Shown: positions 12,254 through 63,031 of the stretch, in pieces | Layout of the letters: each line of letters begins with the position of its first letter | How positions within the stretch are numbered: position 1 is the first letter of the stretch | NCBI RefSeq assembly: GCF_021233415.1 | Contig: NZ_CP089466.1 | Coordinates: 1,984,001-2,048,000 of the forward strand | DNA length: 64,000 bases | Direction: 5' to 3' | Source: Halobacterium litoreum | GTDB taxonomy: Archaea > Halobacteriota > Halobacteria > Halobacteriales > Halobacteriaceae | The notes under the pieces: generated by a model | What the model was told of the DNA's origin: nothing | Database searches by the model: none | The model's input: only the letters and a program-made list of their open reading frames with translations | Made by a program: the position numbers and the translations under genes

Positions 12254-13072
12254 TCAGCGCGCGAACTTCAGCGCGAACCGGTAGCCGGCGTCCAGCCAGC
12301 GGTCCGGCAGGAATCGCGCGAGTACACCGAATCGGCCGGCGCGCGCCACCGGGTAGCGGGGCGCCGGGTCGGGGCTGACCGCGGCCTCCGTGATGACTTC
12401 GGCGACGCGCTCCGGAGACACCGCGCCGAGGCCGTTGACTGCGCTCGCGTCCGAGAAGAACTCGTAGATGCGCTCGTACGCACCGCTCTTGTCGAGGTCG
12501 TCGAACTCGTCGTCCGCGCGCTCCTGGAACGACGTGTCGACCGGGCCGGGCTCCACGACCGCCACGTCGATGCCGTACTCCGAGACTTCGCCGCGGAGCG
12601 CGTCGCTCATCCCCTCGATGGCGAACTTCGAGCCGTTGTACGCGCCCATCCCCGGCGTCGCGACGCGCCCGGAGACGCTGGAGACGTTCACGATGGTGCC
12701 GTCCTCGCGCTCCCGCATGTGGGGGAGGGCGGCGCGAATCAGGCGGTGGGGGCCGTAGACGTTCACGTCGAACTGCCGGTGGAGGTCGCGGGTCGGAATA
12801 TCCTCCAGCGGCCCGAGTTGGGCGTACCCCGCGTTGTTCACCAAGCAGTCGAGGCGCCCGTGTTCTGCGACCGTCTCGTCCACGACGTTCCGGCACTGCG
12901 CCGGCTTCGTCACGTCGAGTTCGGCGGTCTCACAGCCCGCCTCCGCGAGCCCCGCGATGTCCTCGGTGTCCCGGGCCGTCGCGACCACCGTCCACTCCTC
13001 GGCGAGCAGCGAACGCGCCGTCGCGGCGCCGATGCCCGACGAACACCCCGTGACGAGTGCGACTTTCTCCAT
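12254..13072 (-). CDS. Short-chain dehydrogenase/reductase
   Basis: The 272-residue classical SDR has TGCSSGIG at residues 8-15 (dinucleotide binding), NNAGYAQ, NVSSVSG (catalytic Ser) and AYNGSKF (catalytic Tyr and Lys), then PGPVDTSF. The ARD after the second strand suggests NADP(H). The substrate is unknown. The ATG at 13072 is chosen because a TATA-like taagtaac (minus strand, 13095-13103) lies 27 nt before it and the upstream frame has no family similarity. The last base of the stop abuts the stop of the Get3-like gene tail to tail. Confidence 0.93.
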   Translation of the reverse strand: MEKVALVTGCSSGIGAATARSLLAEEWTVVATARDTEDIAGLAEAGCETAELDVTKPAQCRNVVDETVAEHGRLDCLVNNAGYAQLGPLEDIPTRDLHRQFDVNVYGPHRLIRAALPHMREREDGTIVNVSSVSGRVATPGMGAYNGSKFAIEGMSDALRGEVSEYGIDVAVVEPGPVDTSFQERADDEFDDLDKSGAYERIYEFFSDASAVNGLGAVSPERVAEVITEAAVSPDPAPRYPVARAGRFGVLARFLPDRWLDAGYRFALKFAR

Positions 13073-13150: not shown

Positions 13151-13315
13151 GCCGAAAGCCCTCGGGTGTCTGCGGTCCCGCCGCTCGCTGTGCTCTTCAC
13201 TCGCTACGCTCGTTCGGTGCTTGCCTCGCGGGGGTTCCCGCAGACACCCTCGCCCTTTCAATCCACCAGGCCGCAAACTGCCCAGTTAGCGACGAGCAGT
13301 CGGCTGACGGGGTGG
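13151..13315 (+). repeat. Structured intergenic repeat E2 (half-unit of the E1 family)
   Basis: The segment starts ccgaaagccctcgggtgtc. Arms gggtgtctgcgg (13164-13175) and ccgcagacaccc (13238-13249) form a perfect 12-bp stem. Its loop contains cactcgctacgctcgttc and gtgcttgcctcg, and it is followed directly by tcgccctttcaatccacc. The order and sequences match, in opposite orientation, half of the E1 element at 61.9-62.2 kb. The second half is decayed: only ccacc (13263-13267) and ggtgg (13311-13315) remain of the central stem. It lies between the SDR promoter and the endonuclease V stop. The rest of the spacer 13073-13348 shows no gene. Confidence 0.7.
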
Positions 13316-13348: not shown

Positions 13349-14125
13349 TCACTTCAGTTCGTCCGCGTACGCGTCGGCGAGGCGCGTCGGCTCCGGGAGT
13401 TTGTAGCCCGCGCAGGTCGCCGCCACGAGGTCGACGGCGGTCTCGGCGCTCGCGCGGTGGCCGGAACTCACGTAGAGCGGGTTGACGTGGCGTTTCTCTG
13501 GGTTCGGGTACTGGCGGGACTGGAAGGCGTACCCGACGACCGTACCGGCGGGCGCGTCCATCGAGTCGTCGGCGTCGATGGGGACTCGGGTGCCCGCGGG
13601 GAGCGGGTCGGCGAGCGGTTCGCGGGGCGTCCCGCAGAGGAGGTTCTTCGCGACGCCGACCGCGGGCACGTCGAAGAGGACGCCGACGTGCGTGGCGATG
13701 CCGGCCTGCCGAAAGTGGATTCGGCCGCTCCCGTCCAAGACGAGCGCGTCCGGGGCGACCGACAGGGATTCGAGCGCGTCCACGATGGCACCGCCCTCGC
13801 GGAACGCGAGCAAGCCGGGGATGTACGGGATTTCGAGCGGTGCGCGACCTTCGGCGCTTTCGACGACGGCACCGTCGCGGATGGCGACCGCGGCGCTCAC
13901 GGACTCGTCGTCGCGGAACGCCTGGTCGACGCCGACGATGACGGGCGCGTCCGCGGCGTCGAGGCCGGTCTGCTCGTCGGGCGTCGCGTCGAGGGCGGCG
14001 TCGCTCGGGTCGAAACCGAGGTCGTCGGCGAACGAGGCGACGCCGGCTATCTCGCGCTGGAGGGCTTCCATCTCCTCGCGGGAGCGTCCGGGGTCGGGGA
14101 GGAACTCGGGGCGGACGACCTCCAT
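13349..14125 (-). CDS. nfi: Endonuclease V (deoxyinosine 3' endonuclease)
   Basis: The 258-residue repair enzyme cuts DNA (or RNA) 3' to inosine, removing deaminated adenine. Catalytic motifs: GVDQAF with Asp67, YIPGLLAFREG with the conserved Glu, and LDGSGRIHFRQAGIATHVGV with Asp and His metal/catalytic positions. YPNPEKRHVNPLYVSSGHRAS near the end is also typical. The N-terminus begins about 60 residues earlier than the catalytic core, with a helical acidic region. Its ATG immediately follows the stop codon of the rhomboid gene (zero-base gap), so the two are one transcript. Confidence 0.93.
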   Translation of the reverse strand: MEVVRPEFLPDPGRSREEMEALQREIAGVASFADDLGFDPSDAALDATPDEQTGLDAADAPVIVGVDQAFRDDESVSAAVAIRDGAVVESAEGRAPLEIPYIPGLLAFREGGAIVDALESLSVAPDALVLDGSGRIHFRQAGIATHVGVLFDVPAVGVAKNLLCGTPREPLADPLPAGTRVPIDADDSMDAPAGTVVGYAFQSRQYPNPEKRHVNPLYVSSGHRASAETAVDLVAATCAGYKLPEPTRLADAYADELK

Positions 14126-60893: not shown

Positions 60894-61843
60894 CAGACGC
60901 ACGCATGCGTTCCCGAGAGCAGGAGCGCACGGACGAAACGGAGACGACCGACGGCTGCCCGGAGTGTGGCGGCCTCGTCGTCAACGACGAAGAGCACGGC
61001 GAGTCGGTGTGTGCCGACTGCGGCCTCGTGGTCGAGGAGGACGGCATCGACCGCGGGCCCGAGTGGCGCGCCTTCGACTCCAAGGAGAAAGACCAGAAGT
61101 CCCGCGTCGGCGCACCCACGACGAACACGATGCACGACAAGGGGCTGTCCACGAACATCGACTGGCGCGACAAGGACGCCTACGGCAACTCGCTGTCCTC
61201 GAACCAGCGCCAGAAGATGCAGCGTCTCCGCAAGTGGAACGAGCGCTTCCGCACCCGCGACGCCAAGGAGCGCAACCTCAAGCAGGCCCTCGGCGAAATC
61301 GACCGGATGGCCTCCGCGCAGGGCCTGCCGGACAACGTCCGCGAGACGGCCTCGGTCATCTACCGCCGCGCGCTCGAAGACGACCTGCTGCCCGGCCGCT
61401 CCATCGAGGGCGTCGCAACCTCCTGCGTGTACGCCGCCGCCCGACAGGCCGGCGTCCCGCGCTCCCTCGACGAAATCGCCGACGTGAGCCGCGTCGAGAA
61501 AGCCGAAATCGCGCGCACCTACCGCTACGTCGTGCGCGAACTCGGCCTCGAAGTCGCGCCCGCCGACCCCGAGAGTTACGTCCCGCGCTTCGCCTCCGAC
61601 CTCGGCCTCTCGGACGAGGCCAGCCACCGCGCCCGCGAACTCCTCAAGACCGCGAAGAACAAGGGCGTCCACTCCGGCAAGTCGCCGGTCGGCCTCGCCG
61701 CCGCCGCCGTCTACGCCGCCGCCCTCCTCACCAACGAGAAGACCACGCAGGCGAAGGTCTCCGAGGTCGCGGACATCTCCGAAGTCACGATTCGGAACCG
61801 CTACCACGAGCTCCTCGAAGCCGAGGACACGATTCCGGTTTAG
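60890..61843 (+). CDS. tfb: Transcription initiation factor TFB
   Basis: The 317-residue archaeal TFIIB homologue has an N-terminal zinc ribbon (CPECGGLVVNDEEHGESVCADCGL), a B-finger/linker (GPEWRAFDSKEKDQKSRVGAPTTNTMHDKGLSTNIDWRDKD) and two cyclin folds with the recognition helix in VSEVADISEVTIRNRYHELLE. It recruits RNA polymerase to TBP-bound promoters. Haloarchaea have several TFB paralogues and which one this is cannot be told. The ATG at 60890 follows a G-rich SD-like run. An upstream TTG would extend it but has no family match. Confidence 0.95.
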   Translation: MTDARMRSREQERTDETETTDGCPECGGLVVNDEEHGESVCADCGLVVEEDGIDRGPEWRAFDSKEKDQKSRVGAPTTNTMHDKGLSTNIDWRDKDAYGNSLSSNQRQKMQRLRKWNERFRTRDAKERNLKQALGEIDRMASAQGLPDNVRETASVIYRRALEDDLLPGRSIEGVATSCVYAAARQAGVPRSLDEIADVSRVEKAEIARTYRYVVRELGLEVAPADPESYVPRFASDLGLSDEASHRARELLKTAKNKGVHSGKSPVGLAAAAVYAAALLTNEKTTQAKVSEVADISEVTIRNRYHELLEAEDTIPV

Positions 61844-61857
61844 ATTCGGTTCATTCC

Positions 61858-61884
61858 GCCGTTTTTCGCGTTTTCGGTTCGTGT
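61858..61884 (+). terminator. T-rich terminator of tfb
   Basis: gccgtttttcgcgttttcgg contains two T-runs (five and four T) 15-40 bp after the tfb stop, the typical archaeal intrinsic termination pattern. No hairpin is needed. Confidence 0.55.
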
Positions 61885-61922
61885 GGTGGGACTGCTTCGT
61901 AGCGACTGCTGCGTTCGCTGGG

Positions 61923-62202
61923 GACGACGCCTCGAAAGCCCCGGCGCGCTCGTGGCCTGTGACTCGCTGCGCTCCTCGCTCCCTCCGGTCGCTGTGGTGC
62001 TTGCGTCGTCTCGACTCACGAGCGCGCCGCCCCTTTCAGTCCACCCGATGCCGGTTGGTCAGCCGGCAGGCTACGGGGTGGACTCCGAAAGGGGCGAGGG
62101 TGTGGACGAAGGCGCGCGACGTAAGCACTGGAACGAGCGAAGCGAGTGAAGCGCGCAGCGAGCGCACCGAGTCCACACCCTCGGGGCTTTCGAGGCGTCG
62201 TC
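61923..62202. repeat. E1: inverted-duplicate element able to form a four-way junction
   Basis: Outer stem P1: 61923-61943 with 62182-62202, 21 bp perfect, sequence beginning gacgacgcctcgaaagcccc. P2: 61944-61954 with 62017-62027 (gcgcgctcgtg), 11 bp. P3: 62030-62037 with 62087-62094 (cccctttc/gaaagggg) and 62038-62046 with 62076-62084 (agtccaccc/gggtggact), separated by a 2-nt bulge, capped by tgccgg/ccggca. P4: 62097-62107 with 62171-62181 (agggtgtggac), 11 bp. Joints have 0, 2, 2 and 0 unpaired bases. The halves are related inverted copies, and E2 at 13.15 kb is a single half. Confidence 0.8.
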
Positions 62203-62299
62203 ATTCCCACGAAGTACACCGGCCGAGAGAACCAATCAGAAAACGAGGACCGTCCACGACTCCGAAACCGTATTGCGCTAGGGCGTCACAGGACCGTGC

Positions 62300-63031
62300 A
62301 TGGACTTCGAGGAGTTCGTGCTCGCTGCGAGCGTCGGCGACCTCGCCGACGAGGAGCGAGCGCGAGAGCACGCGGACGCCGTGGAGTTCCGGATGGACCT
62401 CGCGGACGACCCGCTGGCGGCGCTGGACGACTACGACGGGGAACTGCCGGTCATCGCGACGAACCGCCCGACGTGGGAGGGCGGGGAGGCCGAGGAGGGC
62501 GGGCGCGTGAACGCGCTCGTGGAGGCAGCACAGACCGAGAGCGTCGCGGCCGTGGACGTGGAGTTGGCGTCGCTCGTCGGGAGCGACGAGAACGACGTAG
62601 ACGGAGACGGTGGCGGCGAGGACGACGCGGCGGTCGACGAGCGCGGGAACGGCGCGGAGGTGCTGGCGGCGGCGCGGGCGGCAGATACGACCACCATCGT
62701 GTCGAGTCACGACTTCGAGGGGACGCCGCCGCTCTCGGAGTTGGCGAGCACGCTCGGCGAGGCTTGTTCGCTCGGCGACGTCGGGAAACTCGCGGTGACC
62801 GCCGAGGACCGCGGCGACGCCCTGGACTTGCTCCGGGTGACCCACGAGTACAGCGCGGCGGGGATGACGGTGGCGACGATGGCGATGGGCGAAGCGGGCC
62901 GGCACACGCGCCCGGTCGCGCCGCTGTACGGGTCGCGAATCGGGTACGCGCCCGTGGACAGCGAGGACGCGACAGCGCCCGGCCAGTACGACGCGGCGAC
63001 GCTCCGGCGGCTCGTCGCGGACCTCCGGTAG
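62300..63031 (+). CDS. aroD: 3-dehydroquinate dehydratase, type I
   Basis: The 243-residue enzyme dehydrates 3-dehydroquinate in the shikimate pathway by a Schiff-base mechanism. [32 protein letters not shown] with His137 and GKLAVTA with Lys163 are the active-site segments, with [25 protein letters not shown] at the end. An acidic insertion of about 25 residues (95-118, [15 protein letters not shown] and following) interrupts the barrel and is not normal for the family. It is 51 bp before the zinc-ribbon membrane gene and near dehydroquinate synthase II, the preceding step. Confidence 0.95.

Follow-up and report, generated by a model that had tools for sequence, protein, structure and literature searches.

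A widespread family of long intergenic hairpin repeats in haloarchaea whose rapidly changing stems stay complementary

Two loci with related hairpin repeats, here called E2 and E1, lie between genes in the 64-kb window, by which we mean the whole stretch of DNA analysed. E2 separates a short-chain dehydrogenase gene from an endonuclease V gene, and E1 is found between genes for a TFIIB-type transcription factor and a type I 3-dehydroquinase (Table 1). When the window was searched with covariance model R2, three confident matches were obtained, namely E2 and both units of E1, and the fourth had an E value of only 0.07; in a negative control of 94.6 kb, comprising 27 tRNA neighbourhoods of the host genome and a small contig, nothing fell below E 0.27. 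Generic repeat finding in the window returned mostly codon-biased coding repeats. From its ends inwards E2 reads CGAAAGCCCTC-stem-apical part-stem'-TCGCCCTTTCAATCC, and when folded as single-stranded DNA it reaches -24.2 kcal/mol, compared with -15.88 ± 2.59 kcal/mol for shuffled sequences, none of the 200 shuffles being as low. The original prediction had described E2 as a half-unit of E1 in which the partner of the central stem had decayed. The motif order on which it relied was found where it had been placed, and the likeness to E1 extends over the full unit; it is not confined to tcgct strings, as the ends, the stems and GTGCTTGC are also alike. The stem partner, however, is intact, with zero mismatches between GGGTGTCTGCGG and CCGCAGACACCC. 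Since the stem is complete and E2 folds better than every shuffle, we conclude that E2 is one complete unit and that E1 consists of two complete units arranged tail to tail. The reported opposite orientation of E2 and E1 holds for the right unit of E1 only; the left unit has the same orientation as E2.

Table 1. Positions of the hairpin units, their parts and the neighbouring genes in the 64-kb window
Feature	Position	Strand	Evidence and remarks
Short-chain dehydrogenase gene flanking E2	12254..13072	-	PF00106, E 7.4e-52
E2, complete type-A hairpin unit	13153..13264	+	R2 88.9 bits, E 9.9e-20; placed in the host genome by BLAST; single-stranded DNA fold z -3.2
E2 outer helix, 5' side, GAAAG	13154..13158	+	Pairs with CTTTC at 13255-13259; sequence and fold; covaries between genera
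E2 hypervariable stem, 5' arm, GGGTGTCTGCGG	13164..13175	+	Sequence; helix covaries in the A4 alignment
E2 hypervariable stem, 3' arm, CCGCAGACACCC	13238..13249	+	Perfect complement of 13164-13175; sequence and fold
Conserved tail after E2, AATCCACCAGG	13260..13270	+	Comparison of copies in the host genome
Endonuclease V gene flanking E2	13349..14125	-	PF04493, E 3.5e-50
TFIIB-type transcription factor gene, left of E1	60905..61843	+	PF00382, E 2.9e-46
E1 left unit, type B	61933..62042	+	R2 100.7 bits, E 1.1e-22
E1 centre between both units, palindrome CCGGTTGGTCAGCCGG	62043..62081	.	Sequence
E1 right unit, type B, tail to tail with the left unit	62082..62192	-	R2 111.5 bits, E 2.5e-25
Type I 3-dehydroquinase gene, right of E1	62300..63031	+	PF01487, E 6.3e-41

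Across the family the unit is about 110 nt long and, from base to apex, is built from a 5-bp helix (GAAAG/CTTTC), a mismatch bubble, a stem of 12-13 bp (12 bp, perfectly paired, in E2), a small internal loop, a 7-nt inner helix and an apical part based on CTCGCTGCGC...GTGCTTGCGTCG. The outer helix occurs in variants that covary (GAAAG/CTTTC, GGAAG/CTTCC, CAAAG/CTTTG and CGAAG/CTTCG). The bubble is C-rich and symmetric, reading CCC/CCC in type B and CCCTC/TCGCC in type A, the type of E2, and is retained in 174 of 193 anchored units. In the inner helix the third position is never Watson-Crick (52 distinct cases), and in the apical helix a G-T pair is kept in 102 of the 108 units of the A4 alignment, with T-G replacing C-G in 22. 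Many copies continue into a tail formed by ARTCCACC and a small palindrome around CCGGCTG, and paired units share one such palindrome; comparison of the copies in the host genome showed that the tail hairpin is degenerate at E2. The CCGGCTG palindrome, present at 62043-62081 of the window and in the tails of other copies, may form a second functional part. At E1 the sequences just outside CGAAAG, GACGACGCCT and AGGCGTCGTC, are complementary to each other, as is often the case in pairs.

With a cut-off of E<=1 the covariance model detected 45 units at 33 sites of the host genome, 40 of them at E<=0.001. Twelve sites hold pairs, all 12 arranged tail to tail with a spacing of 15-123 nt, and the other 21 hold single units. 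The earlier proposal of a dispersed repeat family is therefore borne out far beyond the two copies on which it was based. Its suggestion that the family arose by duplication of a half-unit, one copy of which decayed, finds no support, as it is the whole unit that repeats in singles and pairs and the E2 stem is perfect. None of the 33 sites overlaps a gene, although called genes cover 91% of the window (calls were made with a home-made codon-usage caller, using no annotation). Flanking genes are divergent at 12 sites, tandem at 17 and convergent at 4 (n=33), compared with 28, 60 and 12%, respectively, of the intergenic length in the window. Because the site contexts follow intergenic length, there is no preference for terminators; the suggested tie to terminators or particular gene contexts was not upheld, and we ruled out a terminator role for the units. 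Outside the window, one stretch of the chromosome (G000 C1 736450-1652915; 917 kb, 34% of the chromosome) is free of units, for which P is about 6e-5 with 33 random sites, and the best orc1/cdc6 match, at 968100, lies within it.

In an order-wide survey with the covariance model, the family was present in 232 of 293 sampled genomes and in 70 of 87 genera; 13 candidates per genome were scored, so that the per-genome numbers are floors. Among 59 close relatives, the host genome included, 39 carry units, and here too the per-genome numbers are floors, at most 64 candidates having been scored in each; one congener, G007, has no units. Halostagnicola, Natronolimnohabitans, Haloparvum, Haloglomus and Natrinema are among the named carriers in the genome collection. 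Of 72,556 plasmid records, 25 gave a partial match, all 25 of them haloarchaeal and none covering 80% of the query, and a search of phage records returned no match to the units.

Comparison of orthologous sites revealed gain and loss between species. The E2 intergene is short and unit-free in seven of 12 congeners (G002, G003, G004, G006, G007, G011 and G012), holds a different type-B unit in G010, a remnant in G001 and about 1 kb of other DNA in G008, and is of similar length, judged by length alone, in G005 and G009. At the E1 site, a single related unit with another stem and interior is present in five of 11 congeners (G004, G008, G009, G011 and G012), and the remaining six (G001, G002, G003, G005, G007 and G010) are unit-free. 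Judging from their sequences, the interiors at this site look as if they had been swapped in place; the other interior classes there were recognised by eye and as weaker model matches. In L110, L111, L112, L114 and L119, at the E1 site, other interiors (CATATC...GATAG or GACAGCATCC) are enclosed by common GAAAGCCCC/CCCCTTTC ends. The unit-free E2 and E1 sites have diverged too far for exact borders or a target duplication of free units to show, and because neither an exact empty site nor a target duplication can be read, we infer transposition of the free unit itself rather than observe it.

The 12-13-bp stem is the fastest-changing part of the unit, and its arms nevertheless stay Watson-Crick. 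In 145 distinct stems we counted 1771 Watson-Crick, 15 G-T, 34 A-C and 53 other cells, compared with 314 Watson-Crick, 10 G-T and no A-C cells in tRNA stems of the host genome; the two sets differ in the share of G-T (p 0.0024) and in the G-T:A-C ratio (p 5e-5). In the units, this ratio (15:34) tilts the opposite way (p 0.009), with one stem position supplying 13 of the A-C cells. The 145 stems come from a looser anchor that kept 193 of 203 model matches, and stems less than 60% Watson-Crick were dropped before counting (three such stems occurred in the strict-anchor set); the strict anchor kept 155 of the 203 while 48 failed, and 139 units of type A or B were used. The tRNA control comprised 30 distinct tRNAs from 30 of 41 tRNA matches, with the register chosen to maximise pairing and with tRNAs of odd length and those having fewer than 10 of 12 pairs left out. 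When 3' arms were dealt at random among 101 type-B stems, 59% of positions paired, compared with 94.6% observed, and in the A4 alignment (108 units) covariation was 0.555, as against 0.139 ± 0.006 after shuffling and at most 0.071 when slid. Between type-B units with equal-length loops, compensated double changes affected 8.1% of stem cells and single changes 1.5% when the loops were 2.6% apart, and these values rose to 32% and 4.9%, respectively, at a loop distance of 8.7%. Because the loops are under constraint, the faster change of the stem may in part reflect neutral change combined with selection for pairing.

RNA stems accept G-U but not A-C pairs. Since G-T is rare in the long stem and A-C at least as common, unlike in the tRNAs of the same genome, pairing of the stem is probably maintained at the DNA level, as far as the sequences indicate. 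Only five footprints of inversion or homogenisation were seen. In two units (in L205 and L189) the interior is inverted relative to the canonical ends and tail, compared with 138 units in normal orientation, and in three others (L091, L215 and L097) the bubble has turned complementary, L097 being also turned round. Template switching in hairpins is described as producing inversion and arm copying (PMC8794818; PMC8604942): the former reports, for rRNA and other genes, that a single event can bring about compensatory changes of several bases and a perfect stem, and the latter names arm homogenisation and spacer inversion among the outcomes. Inverted interiors and complementary bubbles are thus expected products of such switching. 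In contrast to those published hairpins, the units described here belong to a dispersed intergenic repeat and have almost no G-U. Because free copying of arms would erase the bubble, and yet most units keep it, something appears to select for it. Alternatively, ectopic gene conversion between copies could swap stems en bloc.

The strong covariation, together with the conserved apical sequence and the apical G-T (G-U) pair, could also be read as the signature of a structured RNA, either non-coding or part of an mRNA, that was copied around the genome and whose stems covary through selection on the RNA fold. We consider this unlikely, given that the long stem has the pairing pattern just described, that the gene context of the units is not fixed and that Rfam gave no hit in the window at gathering score and none for E1 (61850-62250) even at E<=5. 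The apical G-T pair and the T-G seen in place of C-G would suit RNA; the conserved G-T could reflect a stage as RNA or else recognition of the bases themselves. A different possibility is that ordinary DDE transposons alone moved the unit by MITE capture, in which case the hairpin would simply be carried along and its structure would be left over from a hairpin hot spot. Precisely such carriage exists in H. noricense (G011), where type-A units lie inside MITEs of 227-286 bp that are bounded by GGCAGTGTTCAGATAAG.../...CTTATCTGAACAC and flanked by 8-bp target duplications. Identity within the two closest copy pairs is 99.6 and 100% over 227-228 bp, and G029 has a 0.7-kb element that encodes an IS6-family transposase and is enclosed by the same ends. 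In this species, IS6-type ends mobilise the unit merely as a passenger. As a general account, however, MITE capture is rather improbable: the exact end motif was absent from all unit loci of the host genome that were examined, E2 among them, and the free units there have nothing but the unit and its tail in common.

REP, BIME and REPIN sequences are intergenic, multi-copy, non-autonomous palindromes that frequently occur as inverted pairs. The haloarchaeal units resemble them in being intergenic and multi-copy, with tens of copies, and in having two palindromes inverted, tail to tail, at 12 of the 33 sites, which would suit an element mobilised by a RAYT or another Y1 (IS200-type) transposase. 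We nevertheless regard this as very unlikely. Y1_Tnp (PF01797) had no match in the host genome and was positive in five of 14 control genomes, and among the 59 genomes units and Y1 showed no association (both in 19, units only in 20, Y1 only in 11 and neither in nine; Fisher p 0.78), so we rejected a Y1 transposase as the mover. The units also have a conserved mismatch bubble and, at about 110 nt, are much longer than REPs, for which PMC3733652 gives 20-40 bp. Least probable of all, in our judgement, is that the units represent ends or the reRNA of IS605/TnpB elements, akin to PATE-like remnants. Near-terminal palindromes are described for Haloquadratum PATEs in PMC3119063, and some tnpB genes (loci L286, L296 and L298) are followed by a GAAAGCCC or GAAAGCC(C) string and a short perfect hairpin, which resembles the unit over about eight bases and then diverges. 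Against this, at the 30 tnpB loci from the 59-genome search model R1 gave no more than two matches, both of them weak (E 4.5e-4 and 0.16) and separated by hundreds of bases from the end of the gene, and neither CCCTTTCARTCC nor GTGCTTGCGTCG was found at any of them. With no unit nearby at these 30 loci, we rejected the units as IS605/TnpB ends.

The explanation we prefer, to which we give an even chance, is that E2 is a copy of a haloarchaeal group of small non-autonomous palindromic DNA repeats that are dispersed in trans, renewed by recopying of arms and subject to selection on bubble and apex. Under this explanation, copies would disperse through a trans-acting factor for which the folded strand, or its ends, serves as the recognition signal, and complementarity of the arms would be maintained in the DNA itself, chiefly through recopying of one arm from the other, probably by template switching in the hairpin while DNA is replicated or repaired; bubble and apical sequence would be kept by selection and not by mutation. 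The existence and structure of the family, its placement between genes, the presence or absence of units at a site in different species, carriage by IS6-type MITEs in one species and the concerted change of arms are demonstrated, and it is from sequence that we infer a function of the units. The data can be explained without any role for neighbouring genes. Conservation concerns the folded DNA strand, which is about 110 nt long, has an almost free stem sequence and often forms a tail-to-tail pair with a small palindrome at its centre. A more specific version, which we put forward tentatively and think rather less probable, is a pan-haloarchaeal mobile element without genes, recognised in the form of a folded single DNA strand and moved by a non-Y1 enzyme; its stem would be rewritten by template switching so fast that sister copies and orthologous sites come to differ across almost all of it, with the bubble and apical signal held by selection.

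Among described elements, SMR-A of Haloquadratum walsbyi (HqIRS42, HqIRS43 and HqIRS55) comes closest: PMC3119063 describes it as having inverted ends, a length of about 110 bp and tens of copies, and calls its mobilisation "enigmatic". By that description, it resembles the units in length, inverted ends (GAAAG/CTTTC here), copy number, possession of several unrelated interiors and haloarchaeal host. According to the same paper, SMR-A lies mostly inside IS605/PATE palindromes, whereas the units described here are free between genes at 33 of 33 sites, and 96 kb of two H. walsbyi plasmids contained no unit match. A further trait of SMR-A is the lack of a target duplication, for which the E2 and E1 empty sites have diverged too far to give readable borders. 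In the open-access literature we found no published description of the unit family, although subscription journals may hold one. The family is thus real, widespread and apparently undescribed; its broad kind, small non-autonomous palindromic repeats, is known, and what is new is the long unit with a fixed bubble and a free yet perfectly matched stem. With 232 of 293 genomes carrying it and no Rfam model, it would constitute a missing layer in haloarchaeal genome annotation. It also carries a warning: very strong covariation, which is usually taken to prove an RNA, occurs here with a pairing pattern that suggests DNA. Its fast stem change with matched sides makes it a good natural setting in which to study the spread and renewal of DNA hairpins, and since culturable Halobacterium species carry tens of copies each, the rate and mechanism of hairpin-arm copying would be directly measurable.

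We also observed twin modules at unit loci, defined as at least two perfect hairpins with stems of 7-12 bp and loops of 3-4 nt, 3-13 nt apart, several of which are inserted within units (L132 2078-2127, L137 294-477, L140 2353-2458, L154 1725-1839, L075 1944-1992 and others). Unit loci totalling 469 kb contained 27 distinct hairpin twins, compared with none in the 64-kb window and one in ten shuffled windows. The outer bases of their stems recur (CGAAAG, CGAGAG, CGGAAGA and CGTGGCGGC), and the inner bases vary with their pairing matched.
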